From the NCBI GenBank assembly GCA_021736445.1, contig JAIPGA010000019.1, positions 1-35,795 on the forward strand: DNA of 35,795 bases. The letters are read 5' to 3'. The DNA comes from Synergistales bacterium (GTDB taxonomy: Bacteria > Synergistota > Synergistia > Synergistales > Aminiphilaceae). Positions within the stretch are counted from its first letter, which is position 1, and every line of letters starts with the position of its first letter. The translations under genes and the position numbers were made by a program. Below the pieces are notes generated by a model, which saw only the letters and a program-made list of their open reading frames with translations, ran no database searches and was not told the origin of the DNA. This document shows positions 5,508 through 14,210 of the stretch, piece after piece.

Positions 5508-5649
5508 CTATCCACAATGGCGCTGCCCGCTCCTTGTGAAGGGAGGAGGATTTCGTGGATATGTGGACAACGCCTGTGGATAACTTTGCCGCTAGGGCCG
5601 CTGAAGCTCCTCTGTACCAGGACTGTACCGGTGGAACCATTGTGGATAA
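5508..5649. promoter_or_regulatory. Cluster of four DnaA-box-like 9-mers
   Basis: Two perfect DnaA boxes (TTATCCACA on the minus strand) lie at 5575-5583 and 5641-5649. Single-mismatch versions lie at 5562-5570 (TTGTCCACA, minus) and 5508-5516 (CTATCCACA, plus). Three of the four are in the 228-bp gap between the thermonuclease-like gene and the TamB-like gene; the fourth is in the 3' end of the nuclease gene. Chromosomal origins often lie near rsmG-parA-parB, which starts 1.5 kb away, and gene orientation flips nearby. No clear AT-rich unwinding element is visible and dnaA is not in the window, so origin function is inference. Confidence 0.5.
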
Positions 5650-7073: not shown

Positions 7074-7119
7074 ATCATAGCAGGGAATCCCGGAGTTCGC
7101 TTGACAGGGGGTGACAACA

Positions 7120-7806
7120 ATGAGGTTTCTTGATCGCAAGGGTGCGATGCGGCGGACACGGGAGGCCTTTCCACGTCTGGAGGACTACGGAAGGGAGCTG
7201 CTGCGACGGAACCAGCGGTGCCGGATGGTGGGACCCCGTGCCTTCTGGCCGCTCTTCCGGGAGCATATCCTGGACTGCGCCGCCCTGCTCCCGCTTCTTC
7301 CCGGGGTGGGACGCCTCTGCGACATCGGTACCGGCGGAGGACTCCCGGGCCTGGTCTGGGCGCTGCTCCAGCCGGAGCTGGAGGTGACCCTGCTGGAAAA
7401 GGGGGCGAAGAAGGCCGGTGCGCTCTCGTCACTGGTGGCTGCCCTCGAGGTGGACAATGCTGTTGTGGTCTGCAGCCGCGCCGAGGAGCTCGCAGGGGAG
7501 GGCGGAGAGCGGTTCGATCTGGTCACCGGACGCGCCGTGGCCCACACGGGGATTCTGGCCGAATACGCCGCCCCGCTGCTCGTTCCCTGCGGTACGCTGC
7601 TGGTGATGAAGGGACCCGGCTACAGGGCGGAGCTTGAGGAGCTGGAAGGCGGCTGGGAGCGCCTGGGACTGTCACCGGGGGATGTCTTTCTGTATACCAA
7701 TTTCGGGCGGGAACTCTATGCTTTGCTGTTCCACAAGACCGCGGAGCCCCTCGTCAGGCTGCCGCGGCGTCCTGGAATGGCGGAAAAACGAAAGTGGTGG
7801 AGGTGA
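7120..7806 (+). CDS. rsmG: 16S rRNA (guanine-N7)-methyltransferase RsmG (GidB)
   Basis: This 228-aa protein is RsmG, which uses S-adenosylmethionine to methylate N7 of G527 (E. coli numbering) in 16S rRNA. The SAM-binding motif LCDIGTGGGLPGLVWAL, the downstream VTLLEKGAKKAGAL and the family signature VTGRAV are present in the expected order. The ATG at 7120 is chosen over an in-frame GTG at 7111 because an AGGGGG site lies 8 nt upstream of the ATG. The stop at 7804-7806 falls right before the parA start, so the genes are translationally close. rsmG next to parA-parB is a common arrangement near bacterial replication origins. Confidence 0.93.
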   Translation: MRFLDRKGAMRRTREAFPRLEDYGRELLRRNQRCRMVGPRAFWPLFREHILDCAALLPLLPGVGRLCDIGTGGGLPGLVWALLQPELEVTLLEKGAKKAGALSSLVAALEVDNAVVVCSRAEELAGEGGERFDLVTGRAVAHTGILAEYAAPLLVPCGTLLVMKGPGYRAELEELEGGWERLGLSPGDVFLYTNFGRELYALLFHKTAEPLVRLPRRPGMAEKRKWWR

Positions 7807-7811
7807 ATGAT

Positions 7812-7853
7812 GTGCACACAGTCGGAATAGCGAACCAGAAAGGCGGCGTAGGG
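7812..7853 (+). CDS. parA: parA (soj) exon 1, P-loop 5' half
   Basis: Fourteen codons, starting at a GTG with GGAGG 9 nt upstream, read MHTVGIANQKGGVG. This is the start of a ParA/Soj ATPase up to the middle of the deviant Walker A box (KGGVGKTT). Without splicing, translation would read three intron codons and stop at the TAG at 7863-7865. With the intron at 7854-9765 removed, the frame joins exactly to AAG ACA ACC (KTT) at 9766 and gives a normal 256-aa ParA. An alternative in-frame GTG at 7803 abuts the ribosome-binding site and is less likely. Confidence 0.88.
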
Positions 7854-8106
7854 GTGCGTCCGTAGAGCTGTGCCCGGATTCCTGTGGATTGCGGTGGGAT
7901 CCGGACGGCCGCCCGGCTGACCCGCAGCGGAAACGTGAAGCGGGAAACAAAGCATGCCGGGAAAGCGTCGCCGGGGCGGATCGGGTACGCCCCGGGGGAT
8001 GCGAGGTCGGTGGGTGATAGGGTCAAAGCTGGATTGCCTGAATCCCAGTCTCCGCGCCTGAAACCGCCGGGGAGCGCACCACACCCGGAATGAGCTGTGC
8101 GCTTCT

Positions 8107-8157
8107 GGACACCGTGGAGGGGATACTCCCTACGTCGCCTCCACACCGCCGGTGTCC
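8107..8157 (+). ncRNA. Group II intron domain I stem-loop with EBS1
   Basis: The outer arms GGACACC (8107-8113) and GGTGTCC (8151-8157) and the inner arms GTGGAGG (8114-8120) and CCTCCAC (8138-8144) form a two-part stem. Its terminal loop contains CCCTACG (8128-8134). This is the exact reverse complement of CGTAGGG at 7847-7853, the last 7 nt of the 5' exon, as expected for an EBS1-IBS1 pairing that selects the 5' splice site. Confidence 0.75.
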
Positions 8158-8368
8158 ACGGCAGGGGTTGTTCCCCTGTTTCGGGGACGAACGGGAGACC
8201 TACGTCACCCTGTGTCGTTCGGGACAGCGAAACGGAGATGGCCTACGGCGGCGGTAGCCGCCATGGCTACGGAGCCCCCATAGTAGTCCGGGGACGGGAA
8301 AGCCGTCCGCATGGCGAAGGGGGGCAGGTCACGGCTCAAACCGGGAGAATCGTGGAGGTATGCGACCA

Positions 8369-9700
8369 ATGCAGAACGCCGACAGGGTTCTCTCCATTCT
8401 GCGCACAAACACAGCAAAGGATCACGACTACCGGCCGAAACGGCTCTACCGCCTGCTCTACAACGTCGATCTCTACAGGGTTGCCTGGATCCGGTGGATG
8501 GGACTGCGCCCCTTTTACGGCTCTTCAGAAGGGGGCGCCCGGTTTCCGGAGGAGGCTGTCGCCGAACGGATCGCCCTGCTGCGGGAGGAACGGTACCGTC
8601 CTCCGGAACGGCTTGCCCGGCAGGCCGCCGGAGGCACAGCCGGTGGAACCGCCGACAGACTGGTCGCCGACGCCGTCGGTATGATTGGGGAAGCCGTCCA
8701 GCGCACCTGGCGGCACCGGCTCCTGCACTCTCTTCCCTACCCCACCCCGGTGCACCGCTTTCTGATGGAGGTGGCGCGCAGGGGCGGGGCGGCCCCGTGG
8801 ATGGTGCTCTGCCGGATCGGGGGATGCGCCGATTCGGGAGCGATCCTCCCTGAGGAGCTGATCGACCAACTGGGAGACGGCCGATTCGGGCCGCTCCTTC
8901 AGCACTACCTCTCCCATCCCGATATCCCCGGAATGCTCACCGGCGCGCCATTGCGGCGTCACCCGATGGTCCGTCTGCTGCAGGAGGCTGTCTGGAGCCG
9001 CTGCTGCCGGGTTTGCGAAAGTCAGGTGCGGCACTGTGCCGCCGCCGGGCCCGTGATGGTGGTGTTCGGCGCGGGGGGAACCCGGTTGGCCGGTGAGACC
9101 GCGGCGGCGGTGGAATCCTGCTGCCGCACCCTCGGGATTGTCCTGTCGGAACCGCCGCTGGTGGTGGATGCACACCGGATGTCCCTTGAACTCTTCGGCT
9201 ACCGTGTGGTCCGACCGGGCGGGGGGGAGGAACCCCGCCTGGATCTCCCCAGATCGACGGTCCAGCAGGCGCTGGCCCCCTATCTCCGGGAGGGCCGTCC
9301 GGTCCACGCCGGATGGCTGGTGAACCGGACGGCCGGGGAGGCTATCGCCCGGTACGCTGCTGAGCTCCAACGTTTCCATCGGTTTTGCTCGCTGGCCTGG
9401 AACTGCAACCGGCGTCTGCGGGGGTTCCGGAAGCTCCATCTGGCCAGTCTGGCCAGAACGCTTGCCCGCAAGGAGCAGGTGAGCGTCCGGGAGATCTACC
9501 GGCGCTACGGGTGCCGCCGTCCCGATCGGAACGGCGAACCCAGGGTCACCCTGGCCTTTTCCGCGGACGGAAGAGAGGCCGCCTATCCGGTTGGTCCCTT
9601 TCCGCCCCGGGGGGGGCCCCCGATCGGGGAACCCCAGGCCGGACCGGATGGTCGGGAAGCTGTGCGCGGAATGCTGTGGCTGGAGAGCCGGATGCGCTGA
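8369..9700 (+). CDS. Group II intron-encoded maturase with degenerate, catalytically dead RT domain
   Basis: The protein is 443 aa from this Met; residue numbers below count from the in-frame ATG at 8360. GGAGG at 8354-8358 is 10 nt from 8369 but only 1 nt from 8360. The N-terminus (MQNADRVL, KRLYRLLYNVDLYRVAW) and DRLVADAVGMIGEAV match RT blocks 0 and 1-2 of LtrA-type proteins by eye. Motif A, EGDIKGCFDN in LtrA, reads LCRIGGCADS, with R152 where the catalytic Asp belongs. The PQGG block is TGAPLRR, and the YADD region (227-240) has no Asp; no YxDD or DD occurs anywhere. Domain X is well kept (about 300-384, including LARTLARKEQVSVREIYRRYG). There is no C-terminal HNH endonuclease. The likely role is splicing of its own intron without retrotransposition. 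The frame is intact, arguing against a decaying pseudogene. The stop lies inside domain V. Confidence 0.85.
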   Translation: MQNADRVLSILRTNTAKDHDYRPKRLYRLLYNVDLYRVAWIRWMGLRPFYGSSEGGARFPEEAVAERIALLREERYRPPERLARQAAGGTAGGTADRLVADAVGMIGEAVQRTWRHRLLHSLPYPTPVHRFLMEVARRGGAAPWMVLCRIGGCADSGAILPEELIDQLGDGRFGPLLQHYLSHPDIPGMLTGAPLRRHPMVRLLQEAVWSRCCRVCESQVRHCAAAGPVMVVFGAGGTRLAGETAAAVESCCRTLGIVLSEPPLVVDAHRMSLELFGYRVVRPGGGEEPRLDLPRSTVQQALAPYLREGRPVHAGWLVNRTAGEAIARYAAELQRFHRFCSLAWNCNRRLRGFRKLHLASLARTLARKEQVSVREIYRRYGCRRPDRNGEPRVTLAFSADGREAAYPVGPFPPRGGPPIGEPQAGPDGREAVRGMLWLESRMR

Positions 9701-9718
9701 AAGGCGCACGTTCGGTTC
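9685..9718 (+). ncRNA. Group II intron domain V
   Basis: The 34-nt hairpin has outer arms GAGCCG (9685-9690) and CGGTTC (9713-9718), an internal bulge, and inner arms TGCGC and GCGCA closed by a GAAA tetraloop region. This is the canonical length and shape of the catalytic domain V. The stop codon of the maturase ORF (TGA, 9698-9700) lies within it. Confidence 0.88.
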
Positions 9719-9765
9719 GGAGGAGGGGAAGCCTTCAGTACCCATGGGGAGGTGCCCTATCCTAC

Positions 9766-10494
9766 AAGACAACCTGTTGCGTGAACCTCGCCGCGGTACT
9801 CGGCGGGATGGGAAAGAAGGTCCTGGTGGTCGATATGGACCCGCAGGGAAACTGTACCAGCGGACTCGGTGTGGACCGGGAACAGACGGAACGGAGCGTC
9901 TACCAGCTGCTGATGGACAGCGCCGATCTGCCGGAGGTCGTGGTGGAAACGGAGTGGACCAACGTGTCGGTGATCCCGGCCAACATCGACCTCGCCGGAT
10001 CGGAGGTCGAGCTCGCCGGGGTGATGAGCCGCGAGACGCGGCTCCGTCGGAAACTCAGGGAAGGCAGTGACTACGACGTACTGTTGATCGACTGTCCCCC
10101 CTCGCTGGGGCTGCTCACCATCAATGCCCTGGTTGCCAGCGAACATATGCTTGTCCCCATCCAGTGTGAATACTACGCTCTGGAAGGGGTGGGGCAGCTC
10201 TTGCGCACCGTACGGCTCATTCAGGGCTACCTGAATGAAGACCTGGCGATGGACGGGATTGTGTTGACCATGTTCGACGGCCGGACCAATCTGTCCCGCG
10301 AGGTGGCTGACGAGGTACGGCGCCAGTTCGGCGAGAAGGTCTTCGAGACGATCATACCGAGGAACGTCCGCCTTTCGGAGGCACCGAGCTACGGGAAACC
10401 GATTGGCTACTACGCGGCGAACAGTGTCGGTGCCAGGGCGTTCCAATCACTCGGACAAGAGGTGGTAGGGAGATGGCTCAAGGCAAAGCGTTAG
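9766..10494 (+). CDS. parA: parA (soj) exon 2, chromosome-partitioning ATPase
   Basis: This exon carries residues 15-256 of ParA, beginning KTTCCVNLAAVLGGMGKKVLV, the second half of the Walker A box. Walker A' (VVDMDPQGN) and Walker B (LLIDCPPS) follow, and the C-terminal SEAPSYGKPI is typical of Soj. The product is a nucleoid-binding ATPase that works with ParB and parS to move origins apart. No start codon with a ribosome-binding site precedes KTT in exon 2, and an internal start (ATG 9808) would lack the P-loop, so activity should depend on splicing. Its last 22 nt overlap the start of parB, which indicates coupling. If splicing failed, this would be a broken gene, but the perfect reading-frame restoration argues otherwise. 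Confidence 0.9.
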   Translation, partial: KTTCCVNLAAVLGGMGKKVLVVDMDPQGNCTSGLGVDREQTERSVYQLLMDSADLPEVVVETEWTNVSVIPANIDLAGSEVELAGVMSRETRLRRKLREGSDYDVLLIDCPPSLGLLTINALVASEHMLVPIQCEYYALEGVGQLLRTVRLIQGYLNEDLAMDGIVLTMFDGRTNLSREVADEVRRQFGEKVFETIIPRNVRLSEAPSYGKPIGYYAANSVGARAFQSLGQEVVGRWLKAKR

Positions 10495-11378
10495 GGCGGG
10501 GCCTGGGTGCCCTGATCCCCAGCGGTGACGATGACGGCGGCAGACAAGCCGCCGGGCAGAGGAGAGATGCGCTTCCGGTGGAGAAGCTTGTTCCCAACGA
10601 ACAGCAGCCCCGGAAGGAGGCCGAGCGGAGGGAGATCGCAACCCTTGCCGAGTCCATTGTGGAGCACGGGGTGCTCCAGCCGCTTGTGGTCCGCAGGATG
10701 GACGGAGATGAGGGGCGATACGAGATTGTCGCCGGTGAACGGCGATGGTGGGCGGCCAAAGAGGCCGGGCTCGACGAGGTTCCTGTGACGGTGGTCTCCC
10801 TCACCGAACACGAAGCCCTTGAGGTGGCGCTGGTGGAGAATCTCCAGCGGGAGGATCTGAACCCCATGGAGATCGCCGAGGGACTGCGGCAGCTGCAGGA
10901 GCGTTTCGGTATGAAGCAGGACGAGGTGGCCAGGCGGATCGGATGGAGCCGGCCTGTGGTGGCCAACAAACTGCGACTGCTTCAGCTTCCCGAAACGGTG
11001 CAGGCTGCCCTCCGGAGAGGTGGACTCTCCGAGGGAATTGCTCGACTTCTGCTGGGACGTGCGCCGGAGGAGCAGTCCGCACTCGCGAAGTGGGCCGAGG
11101 AGGAGGAGGCCACGGTGCGGCAGGTGGAAGATGCGCTGGCCCGTAAGGACAGAGAGGCCGTGTCGGAGTCTGGAGAGGCGAGGTCAAGAAGCAAGGCCGT
11201 CCCACCCGCCATGGAGGAAAAAGCCCAGACTGTCGGTCGGCGGCTGGGGGTGTCCCTCACTGTCGGACAAAGGGGAGGCAAGGGATCCATCCGGATCGCA
11301 GGAATGGAGCAAGAGGTCATGGACAGACTTCTGGATCTCCTGGAGGAGGAAGGCCCCAGATTATTCCCCGGGAAATAA
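10473..11378 (+). CDS. parB: ParB/Spo0J chromosome-partitioning protein
   Basis: This 301-aa ParB has the N-terminal LGRGLGALIP motif (residues 7-16) that stimulates ParA, the ParB/Srx CTP-binding fold (about 33-125), a helix-turn-helix region for parS (about 142-175, MKQDEVARRIGWSRPVVANK) and a C-terminal dimer domain. Three perfect parS sites lie 0.3-1.6 kb downstream. One point is odd: the conserved GERRxR box reads GERRWW (88-93), so the last Arg is Trp (codon TGG at 10749-10751). That Arg corresponds to a position important for CTP handling and spreading in Spo0J. The start overlaps the parA stop by 22 nt. Confidence 0.95.
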   Translation: MAQGKALGRGLGALIPSGDDDGGRQAAGQRRDALPVEKLVPNEQQPRKEAERREIATLAESIVEHGVLQPLVVRRMDGDEGRYEIVAGERRWWAAKEAGLDEVPVTVVSLTEHEALEVALVENLQREDLNPMEIAEGLRQLQERFGMKQDEVARRIGWSRPVVANKLRLLQLPETVQAALRRGGLSEGIARLLLGRAPEEQSALAKWAEEEEATVRQVEDALARKDREAVSESGEARSRSKAVPPAMEEKAQTVGRRLGVSLTVGQRGGKGSIRIAGMEQEVMDRLLDLLEEEGPRLFPGK

Positions 11379-11641: not shown

Positions 11642-11649
11642 ACCTGATC

Positions 11650-11683
11650 ACAACAAAATGTTTCACGTGAAACATTTTGTTGT
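11650..11683. promoter_or_regulatory. parS site 1 within a 34-bp perfect palindrome
   Basis: The core TGTTTCACGTGAAACA (11659-11674) is a canonical parS sequence bound by ParB. Here the symmetry extends a further 9 bp on each side, giving 17-bp perfect arms (11650-11666 and 11667-11683). It lies 8 bp after the stop of the small membrane protein gene. As RNA it would make a strong hairpin followed by a T-rich stretch, so it may double as the terminator of the parAB operon. Confidence 0.92.
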
Positions 11684-12111
11684 TCCGGTGGGAGCCCTTC
11701 GGGCCGCCCTGGAATAACGGAGCTCTGCGAAAACGGTATGTCCCGCTGCACCGTGGCGTGGTGCGGCCACTGGGACCCGAATCTGAAGCCGGGTGGTGTG
11801 CCGCGTCCACGGTCTCTGACTTGCCGGAACGAACAGAAGAAATTGAAGGATTTTGGGCCGAGGATGGGCCTGTCGAATGCAGGATTGTATAGACCAGGGT
11901 TGGTGGACCCACGTTTGCCCAAATGGTTCTTTTAGGGATGCTGCAGGGTCGATGTGAGGGGTGCGCTCTTTTGGGCCTGTCACAAACCTGGCCTGAACGC
12001 GATGCAACGGAGAGTTGTGTGATATCCGCCAGGGAAAGACCAAACATTTGTGAGTGCGCATCAACGGACAGGCCATTGGCTTACCCGTTGGCCCCGAGCG
12101 ATACGCCGAGA

Positions 12112-12127
12112 TGTTTCACGTGAAACA
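12112..12127. promoter_or_regulatory. parS site 2
   Basis: A perfect 16-bp parS palindrome (TGTTTCACGTGAAACA), 453 bp from parS 1. Symmetry extends only one more base pair on each side. Confidence 0.92.
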
Positions 12128-12961
12128 TCGGACCGGACCTGCGCATACGTTTTGGCGGGAAACGACAACGGTGCCCCCTGGTGCGCGGTGTTTCCACTGG
12201 CATCGACACTCTGCCTGCTTTGTAGGGAATGTTCTTTGCCTGGGGTTTCTCTCCCGGTTGAATTGGTTTTTGGGCCGTGTGTTGCTCTGGACGCTGCGTT
12301 GCAGGCGCTCCTTTTGGATTGTTGCAGGGCATACGGTAACCCGAAAGACTGCATGCTGCGTTGGCTCGCTGGGCGCTTCAGGCTCCTCCCGTCCGTACTC
12401 GGATGATGTCATGCTTCCCGGATTCCTGTAGCAGGGCGAGGCGCACAACTCAAAAGTGAGAAAGGGTGTAGGCGGCCTGTACTACAAACAGCCGGAACGT
12501 CTACGGAACCGATCATTCCAGAGCTTCCTGTGGTGTTCGATGTTCTCCTGCGTCCTCGACACCATCCCGCGCAAACAGCGACGGGATGGGAGGAGGCCGA
12601 GAATGAATGCTCCTCCTGCAATAACTGAGGAACGCCTGTCCTCAGGGGACAGCCGCGATTGACATATCGTACACAGTGTCGGGGCAAGTGGCAAGCTCAC
12701 CCTGTTAGGTGGTACACAGGCGCCCAGGTGTGTCGTACTTTTCTGGGTAAGGGGAGCCCGATACAGGAAAGGGCAGTGGCGCCGTACCTGCGGAGACGTG
12801 GATGCAGAAGGCCGCCTCGGGTAGATCCGTGCCGGGGCGGAGGATTGGGCCGGGGATGCGTCGGTCCTCTGTTATCCCTTTGTGAAGGAATACCTGCTGG
12901 AGGCTTTGTGCGCCCACAGAACAGGAGCCGTCCGGTGTACGGCGGCTTGCTTCGGGAGCGG

Positions 12962-12977
12962 TGTTTCACGTGAAACA
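12962..12977. promoter_or_regulatory. parS site 3
   Basis: A perfect 16-bp parS palindrome (TGTTTCACGTGAAACA), 850 bp from parS 2 and about 108 bp before the HIT gene start. A possible extended -10 element lies 12 bp downstream. Confidence 0.92.
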
Positions 12978-12985
12978 TCAAGCTG

Positions 12986-12994
12986 TGGTACATT
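12986..12994 (+). promoter_or_regulatory. Possible extended -10 promoter of the HIT-yigZ operon
   Basis: TGGTACATT (12986-12994) resembles an extended -10 element. A weak -35 (TTTCAC, 12964-12969) would fall inside parS 3, with a 19-nt spacer. If real, ParB bound at parS 3 would cover the promoter. This is a consensus match only. Confidence 0.25.
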
Positions 12995-13084
12995 GCGGGG
13001 AGACAATCAGAGACCGCTGCGGTCGTGAAAAACGAGACGCCGCAGGAGGGTTCTGTACAACCTGTATCAGAAAGGGGCACAAGG

Positions 13085-13582
13085 ATGCACCATATCTGGG
13101 CACCGTGGCGGATGGCGTATATCAAGGGGGAGGGGAAAAGCGCGCATGGATGTATCTTCTGCGACTTCCCGAAGGAGCATGATGACCAGCGGCGGCATAT
13201 CCTCCAGCGGGGTGAACGCTGTTTTGTGATGATGAATCTCTTTCCCTACAATCCCGGGCACCTCATGGTGGTTCCCTACCGGCATATCGCCGGCTATGAG
13301 GAGCTGACCGATGAGGAAGGAGCAGAGATGCATCGTATGGCGCGGGAGTGGGTGGGGTTGCTGAGGGAGCGGATGCAGCCCCAGGGATTCAATATGGGGA
13401 TCAATATGGGTAAGGTGGCCGGCGCCGGGTACGAGGAGCATATCCATCTCCATATCGTTCCACGCTGGAACGGCGACATGAATTTCATGCCCGTGCTCGG
13501 GGAGACCCGGGTGGTCCCCGAGACCATCGACGCTACCTATGCCTGGCTCTGCGAACAGTGGGAGCAGTACCGGCATGAATGA
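13085..13582 (+). CDS. HIT-family nucleotide hydrolase/phosphorylase-like protein
   Basis: This 165-aa protein starts MHHIWAPWRMAYI, the usual opening of the Ap4A-phosphorylase-like branch of the HIT family. It has the histidine triad EEHIHLHIVPRW (H119, H121, H123), whose middle His forms the nucleotidyl intermediate. A CIFC pair (C23, C26) fits the zinc-binding HIT proteins. The substrate is probably a dinucleoside polyphosphate or a nucleotide-amine conjugate. AAAGGGG 7 nt upstream supports the start at 13085 over the in-frame ATG at 13025. The stop overlaps the next gene by 8 bp, so the two are translationally coupled. Confidence 0.9.
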   Translation: MHHIWAPWRMAYIKGEGKSAHGCIFCDFPKEHDDQRRHILQRGERCFVMMNLFPYNPGHLMVVPYRHIAGYEELTDEEGAEMHRMAREWVGLLRERMQPQGFNMGINMGKVAGAGYEEHIHLHIVPRWNGDMNFMPVLGETRVVPETIDATYAWLCEQWEQYRHE

Positions 13583-14210
13583 GGCGGACCTCTTCAGGGT
13601 GATCGCCGAGGAGATTGAGTGCGAGGAGACCATCAAACGCTCCCGGTTCATCGGGCACGCCCGTCGGGCCACCACCGGGGGTGAAGCGAGACAAATCGTG
13701 AAAGACATCGCACAACAGCACGGTGGCGCCAACCACAACTGCTGGGCCTACCGGGTCGGGTTTCCCTCGGTAGAGGAGTACTACTCCGACGATGGCGAAC
13801 CCTCCGGATCGGCGGGGAAGCCGATTCTCGGCGCCATCCGGCGGAGGGAGCTGACGATGACCGTCGTGGTGGTGACCCGCTACTTCGGCGGCATCAAGCT
13901 GGGTGTCCGCGGTCTGATCGAGGCCTACGGCGGGACCGCACGGAAGGTTCTGGAGGCTTCGGGGAGCACCAGACAGTGCCTGGCGCGCCCCCTTTCGGTA
14001 CGCACCTCCTATGCCTTCCACGAGCCGCTCCTCGCTGCACTGAAGGAACTCCAGGTCCCCCGGCAGAGTGTCTCCGCCTCCTTTGCCGAGGGGGTGACGC
14101 TGACGGTGATGGTGCCCCTCTCCAGCGAAGAGGCGGTGACGGATCTTCTGGAGGGGTTCGCCCGCAGGGGGGATGTCTCCGGATTCCACTGGCTCGACAG
14201 GGAGGCGTAG
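13575..14210 (+). CDS. YigZ/IMPACT-family protein
   Basis: This 211-aa protein has the IMPACT N-terminal signature. RSRFIGHARRATT, then HNCWAYRVG and the family hallmark DDGEPSGSAGKPIL (about residues 75-88), then VVVVTRYFGGIKLGVRGLIEAYG. A second, ferredoxin-like domain occupies the last third. YigZ-family proteins are linked to translation and stress, but their biochemical activity is unsettled. The start at 13575 overlaps the HIT gene by 8 bp and sits behind a GGAG about 11 nt upstream. Confidence 0.92.
   Translation: MNEADLFRVIAEEIECEETIKRSRFIGHARRATTGGEARQIVKDIAQQHGGANHNCWAYRVGFPSVEEYYSDDGEPSGSAGKPILGAIRRRELTMTVVVVTRYFGGIKLGVRGLIEAYGGTARKVLEASGSTRQCLARPLSVRTSYAFHEPLLAALKELQVPRQSVSASFAEGVTLTVMVPLSSEEAVTDLLEGFARRGDVSGFHWLDREA

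Follow-up and report, generated by a model that had tools for sequence, protein, structure and literature searches.

The stretch of DNA analysed here (the window; 35,795 bp of a Synergistales bacterium, contig JAIPGA010000019.1 of assembly GCA_021736445.1) contains a partition locus with the gene order rsmG-parA-parB-small membrane gene-(parS)-HIT-yigZ, which is conserved in relatives from the order Synergistales (Table 1). Relatives referred to by species name are Thermanaerovibrio acidaminovorans (G016; PMC3035242), T. velox (G038; PMC3910556) and Aminobacterium colombiense (G042; PMC3035294). ParB contains ParB_N and HTH domains, the CTP motifs and the residues R173 and G201, and together with the 16-bp parS this places the system among ParABS. 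As in the chromosomal ParABS systems of Caulobacter and Bacillus, we found identical parS (TGTTTCACGTGAAACA), ParB CTP motifs, adjacent parA and parB genes and a position near a candidate oriC. The window differs from these systems in that its parS is anchored upstream of the HIT gene, in that one parS lies within a 34-bp palindrome, and in that parA is split by a group II intron.

Table 1. Features of the partition locus in the window and of the paralog encoded elsewhere in the same genome.
Feature	Position	Strand	Remarks
Four DnaA-box-like 9-mers, two exact, within 142 bp	5508-5649	.	candidate oriC, ~6 kb upstream
rsmG (gidB)	7111-7806	+	
parA exon 1	7803-7853	+	VNDVHTVGIANQKGGVG
Group II intron, 1912 nt	7854-9765	+	within parA Walker A codons (GGVG^KTT); domain V-VI at 9683-9765
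Intron ORF, degenerate RT/maturase	8360-9700	+	resembles LtrA, E=5e-5
parA exon 2	9766-10494	+	after splicing, ParA aligns with intact ParA from relatives over the exon junction
parB	10473-11378	+	ParB_N + HTH_ParB; CTP motif GERRWWAA, ENLQREDLNP; R173-K179-Q184-G201 (Caulobacter numbering)
Noc-binding-site-like TATTCCCCGGGAAATA	11362-11377	.	parB last codons LFPGK + stop; 1 mismatch to TATTTCCCGGGAAATA
Small membrane-protein-like gene, 72 codons	11423-11641	+	conserved in the order at this place (parB-HIT); without family assignment
Gene-free stretch between small membrane gene and HIT	11642-13084	.	Pfam, codon-periodicity, tRNA and Rfam tests
Perfect inverted repeat of 34 bp enclosing parS 1	11650-11683	.	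AT-rich hairpin, below terminator threshold
parS site 1, exact TGTTTCACGTGAAACA	11659-11674	.	centre of the 34-bp perfect palindrome
parS site 2, exact TGTTTCACGTGAAACA	12112-12127	.	10-bp arms, 12110-12129
parS site 3, exact TGTTTCACGTGAAACA	12962-12977	.	upstream of HIT; usual parS position in the order
HIT-domain gene	13085-13582	+	downstream of parS in most relatives
yigZ/IMPACT (UPF0029) gene	13578-14210	+	same synteny in relatives
Noc-clade ParB paralog of this genome	G000:C40 (L165:3471-4451)	minus	residues QKQR

A preliminary description of this DNA had reported three identical 16-bp parS cores, spacings of 453 and 850 bp between them, and 17-bp perfect arms around the first, and all of these proved correct. 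Sites with up to three mismatches to parS are expected 0.02 times in the window, and 0 shuffles reached three sites. A genome-wide search revealed that the three sites are the only ones with at most two mismatches in the whole 2.45-Mb assembly. The preliminary description had also placed them directly after parAB. Indeed, the cluster adjoins parAB, but the small 72-codon gene lies between parB and parS 1. We conclude that the three sites are a genuine chromosomal centromere, made up of predicted ParB loading sites beside the partition genes. In 26 relatives the HIT start follows parS after 16-40 bp, and this short distance is kept even in a genus in which parS-HIT and parB lie ~10-15 kb apart. 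The HIT-proximal site of the window is parS 3, 107 bp away, with parS 1 and parS 2 being extra. Because of the position of parS in these relatives, parS 3 looks ancestral and the other two look added.

The palindromic arms are 17, 10 and 8 bp long for parS 1, 2 and 3, respectively. The nine extra matched pairs beyond the core of parS 1 have a chance probability of 4^-9 = 3.8e-6. Such extensions are not confined to the window: among the loci examined, 27 of ~200 parS sites have arms of at least 12 bp; chance would produce these at a far lower rate, 4^-4 per site. In genus g26 the arm pairs read GGATGCAA/TTGCATCC, CCCTGCAA/TTGCAGGG and GGGAAGCAA/TTGCTTCCC. Since the arm sequences vary while pairing is maintained, it seems to be the symmetry around parS that is conserved, and not the sequence. 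A Clostridium MAG has a parS with perfect 29-bp arms, located upstream of its parB (L090:4084). In genus g11 (L137-L141) the arms reach 18-20 bp, and their outer CCTC/CCCTCC pairs with GAGG/GGAGGG shortly upstream of the HIT start; through this pairing the transcript could mask the ribosome-binding site.

The palindrome around parS 1 begins 8 nt past the stop codon of the small membrane gene and folds to a 13-bp hairpin (~-13 kcal/mol) whose 3' side is rich in T. It had been proposed that parS 1 may serve as centromere and transcription terminator at once. The general idea of a parS within a terminator is not foolish, given that strong terminator-like hairpins enclose parS at three other loci (L151, L042 and L062; best scores +17 to +45). 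For the window, we scored the hairpin with a d'Aubenton-Carafa-type formula in which terminators score above 0. The hairpin reached only -4.3 on the plus strand and -5.9 on the minus strand, and was absent from the output of a consensus terminator scan. The GC-rich stem with a U-tract that defines an intrinsic terminator was not found at parS 1, where the hairpin is AT-rich. In several relatives the extended parS palindromes lie on the upstream side of HIT, ~16-40 bp before its start codon, a poor location for a terminator. On score and scan we reject the terminator reading for the window, and consider a double role of parS 1 very unlikely.

The stretch that contains the three sites had been described as gene-free, and this holds: no ORF tested between 11642 and 13084 had a Pfam match, there was no codon-position GC periodicity, and tRNA and Rfam searches gave no match. 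It may plausibly also be the dedicated loading platform that had been suggested. In other genera, enlarged gene-free gaps between parB and HIT that hold two parS occupy the corresponding position (L036, L051; genomes G003, G017). This argues against the view that the stretch is a decayed or expanded spacer with chance extra parS and no platform role. On the other hand, a comparison with the gaps of G003 and G017 found parS and nothing else in common with the window, and in most relatives one or two parS in a short gap suffice. Since the gene-free DNA has no homology to the relatives' gaps beyond parS, a platform function has no backing from conservation. A mere spacer is thus a possibility to be taken seriously, though we rather doubt it.

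The other partition gene of the locus is interrupted. The 1912-nt insertion in parA was identified as a group II intron by its domain V, its boundaries and its EBS-IBS pairing; 7 bp can form between an EBS1 candidate at 8128-8134 and the last bases of exon 1 (IBS1), which backs the 5' boundary. As in group II introns with an LtrA-type intron-encoded protein, domain V-VI scores above the Rfam cut-off, the 5' end reads GTGCG, EBS1 pairs with IBS1, and the encoded protein is similar to LtrA. Unlike in these introns, the element interrupts a chromosomal partition gene within its Walker A codons, and the encoded protein is without the active-site residues of a reverse transcriptase: the ORF lacks the catalytic Asp (GDIKGCFDN) and any YADD. 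The intron is single-copy in the genome, and its RT/maturase ORF was found in no other of the 183 genomes of the order that were searched. The Walker ATPase ParA is complete only with the intron spliced out, and the junction is exact in sequence. We conclude that ParA function here depends on the predicted splicing.

A second type of site was detected at the end of parB. The sequence TATTCCCCGGGAAATA covers the last codons and the stop of the gene ~280 bp before parS 1, and it is the sole site resembling a Noc-binding site (NBS) with at most one mismatch in the genome (G000). A search with the core RTTTCCCGGGAAAY revealed ATTTCCCGGGAAAT at the parB end in relatives, where the site is encoded by the codons xTA TTT CCC GGG AAA TA[AG], that is LFPGK plus stop. 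In a cross-phylum control, an NBS with at most one mismatch was present in 1/80 loci with ParB among the matches listed, and there away from the parB end.

The genome also encodes a ParB paralog. According to the published code, Noc specificity depends on Q173, K179 or K184, and R201 (PMC7383237). At positions 173/179/184/201 (Caulobacter numbering), each of the 21 paralogs examined has Q-K-x-R, and the Synergistales ParBs have R-K-x-G with the exception of the g13 hybrids. An unrooted phylogeny joined the paralogs to Bacillota Noc and separated them from every ParB (100/97 support), and in such a tree the grouping persists when the four specificity residues are masked (SH-aLRT 93). With the NCBIfam model nucleoid_noc, the paralogs score 219-244 bits (232 for the paralog of this genome) and the window ParB 198, at a cut-off of 315. 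Because this cut-off is not reached, we call the protein Noc-type and do not file it as Noc. The many NBS that a Noc has over the chromosome except ter were likewise not found in this genome. The N-termini of the paralogs are short and hydrophobic/basic, as judged by eye only (e.g. KMWDVLRFLRT, MDVVRFLKN).

Noc has been described as confined to Firmicutes, with NBS widely distributed on the genome (PMC7383237), and 41 bound loci were reported for S. aureus Noc (PMC5540599). Noc clamps load at NBS and bind the membrane via an N-terminal amphipathic helix (PMC8429893). Compared with the Noc-NBS systems of Bacillus subtilis and Staphylococcus aureus, the Synergistales paralog is alike in belonging to the Noc clade with Q-K-x-R, in that the site found in relatives is identical to the consensus TATTTCCCGGGAAATA, and perhaps, judged by eye only, in a short N-terminal amphipathic-like segment. 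It differs in lying outside the Firmicutes, and in that each genome has essentially a single strong site, placed within the parB stop, versus tens of sites. The paralog is therefore likely a clamp of the Noc type for which the centromere holds what is in effect the only strong predicted site. Our literature search, with many journals outside its coverage, returned no paper joining Synergistetes with Noc and nucleoid occlusion.

Site and paralog occur together. A parB-stop site with at most two mismatches was found in 21/22 genomes with the paralog versus 2/21 without it (Fisher p 5e-9, uncorrected for kinship; the genomes are non-independent observations and several assemblies are incomplete). 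T. acidaminovorans and T. velox are among the genomes that have both. The association is also seen within families. In f10, G054 has both site and paralog and the other genomes tested have neither; in f4, g13 has both and g6 and g18 have neither. Exceptions are A. colombiense (exact site, paralog not detected), G134 (site present; assembly 66% complete) and G056, which has lost the stop site.

LFPGK is a conserved peptide of many Synergistales ParBs, some of them from paralog-free genomes, so the locus could be an ordinary ParABS centromere only, with the palindrome at the parB stop merely reflecting a conserved C-terminus. Codon choice speaks against this. In five genomes with paralog and exact site, the synonymous codons of LFPGK match the site with P = 2e-4 to 2e-3, whereas the paralog-free genomes G035 and G046 write the same peptide with other codons (P = 0.7-1.0). 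The site of the window itself has one mismatch, and its own codon fit (P = 0.012) is not striking alone. Furthermore, two f2 genomes (G013, G004; L016, L018), in which the core is altered yet symmetric and the paralog is still QKQR, retain the palindrome TATTTCCGCGGAAATA despite the peptide LFPRK, and G056 has an exact copy of the site 226 bp downstream of its parB stop. We therefore regard a mere reflection of the peptide as unlikely.

Unusual ParB/parS systems were also observed in relatives. In G023, G048, G015 and G056 (L053, L189, L033, L190) we found a hybrid parS, TGTTTCCCGGGAAACA, in which the outer G of parS is combined with the Noc core CCGG, and the ParB of these genomes combines R173 with R201. 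G201 of ParB is absolutely conserved according to PMC7383237. Their sister species G043, G134 and G135 retain canonical parS and G201. A different situation was encountered in G052 (L166, L174-L188; also G030, G037 and G060), with 65-69 parS-like TGTTCCACGTGGAACA sites (at most one mismatch) chromosome-wide, compared with 20-23 parS quoted as a high number elsewhere (PMC7333895). In this group the sites are denser near parB, the origin half holding 42 of 57 exact ones (p 2e-4).

Judged from its sequence, the region is probably the Synergistales chromosomal centromere in the form of a composite loading platform, for ParB at parS and for a Noc-type clamp ~280 bp away. ParB-CTP clamps are known to load at parS and then slide (PMC7333895). 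Here, they would load at the three parS and slide outward over flanking DNA, and the complex would be moved by the ParA ATPase, which would be made only after splicing of the group II intron. For the Noc-type clamp, loading would take place at the one site overlapping the parB stop, and the clamp may anchor the origin region to the membrane by a short amphipathic-like segment at its N-terminus, or couple this region to division/replication. With both clamps loading within ~300 bp, we infer that the origin region would be moved by ParA and also be membrane-attached or division/replication-coupled. The extended palindrome at parS 1 would need no terminator role in such an arrangement.

Two features go beyond the preliminary description: the Noc-type site that overlaps the end of parB, and the group II intron that interrupts parA. 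The former is probably a DNA site of regulatory function that has become fixed within codons and a stop codon, with natural contrasts of presence and absence, and the ParB/parS specificity hybrids of relatives test the published residue code. For the phylum Synergistota we put forward, with evenly balanced confidence, that a membrane-type Noc clamp has effectively one dedicated chromosomal site, written into the codons and stop of parB, its own paralog, so that segregation and membrane or division/replication coupling would meet at one composite centromere. Noc would here be an origin-anchoring factor and not a genome-wide nucleoid-occlusion factor. If true, a Noc-clade protein outside Firmicutes whose one conserved site lies at the centromere would separate the origin role of Noc from nucleoid occlusion, and such a one-site case would offer a clean, testable system.
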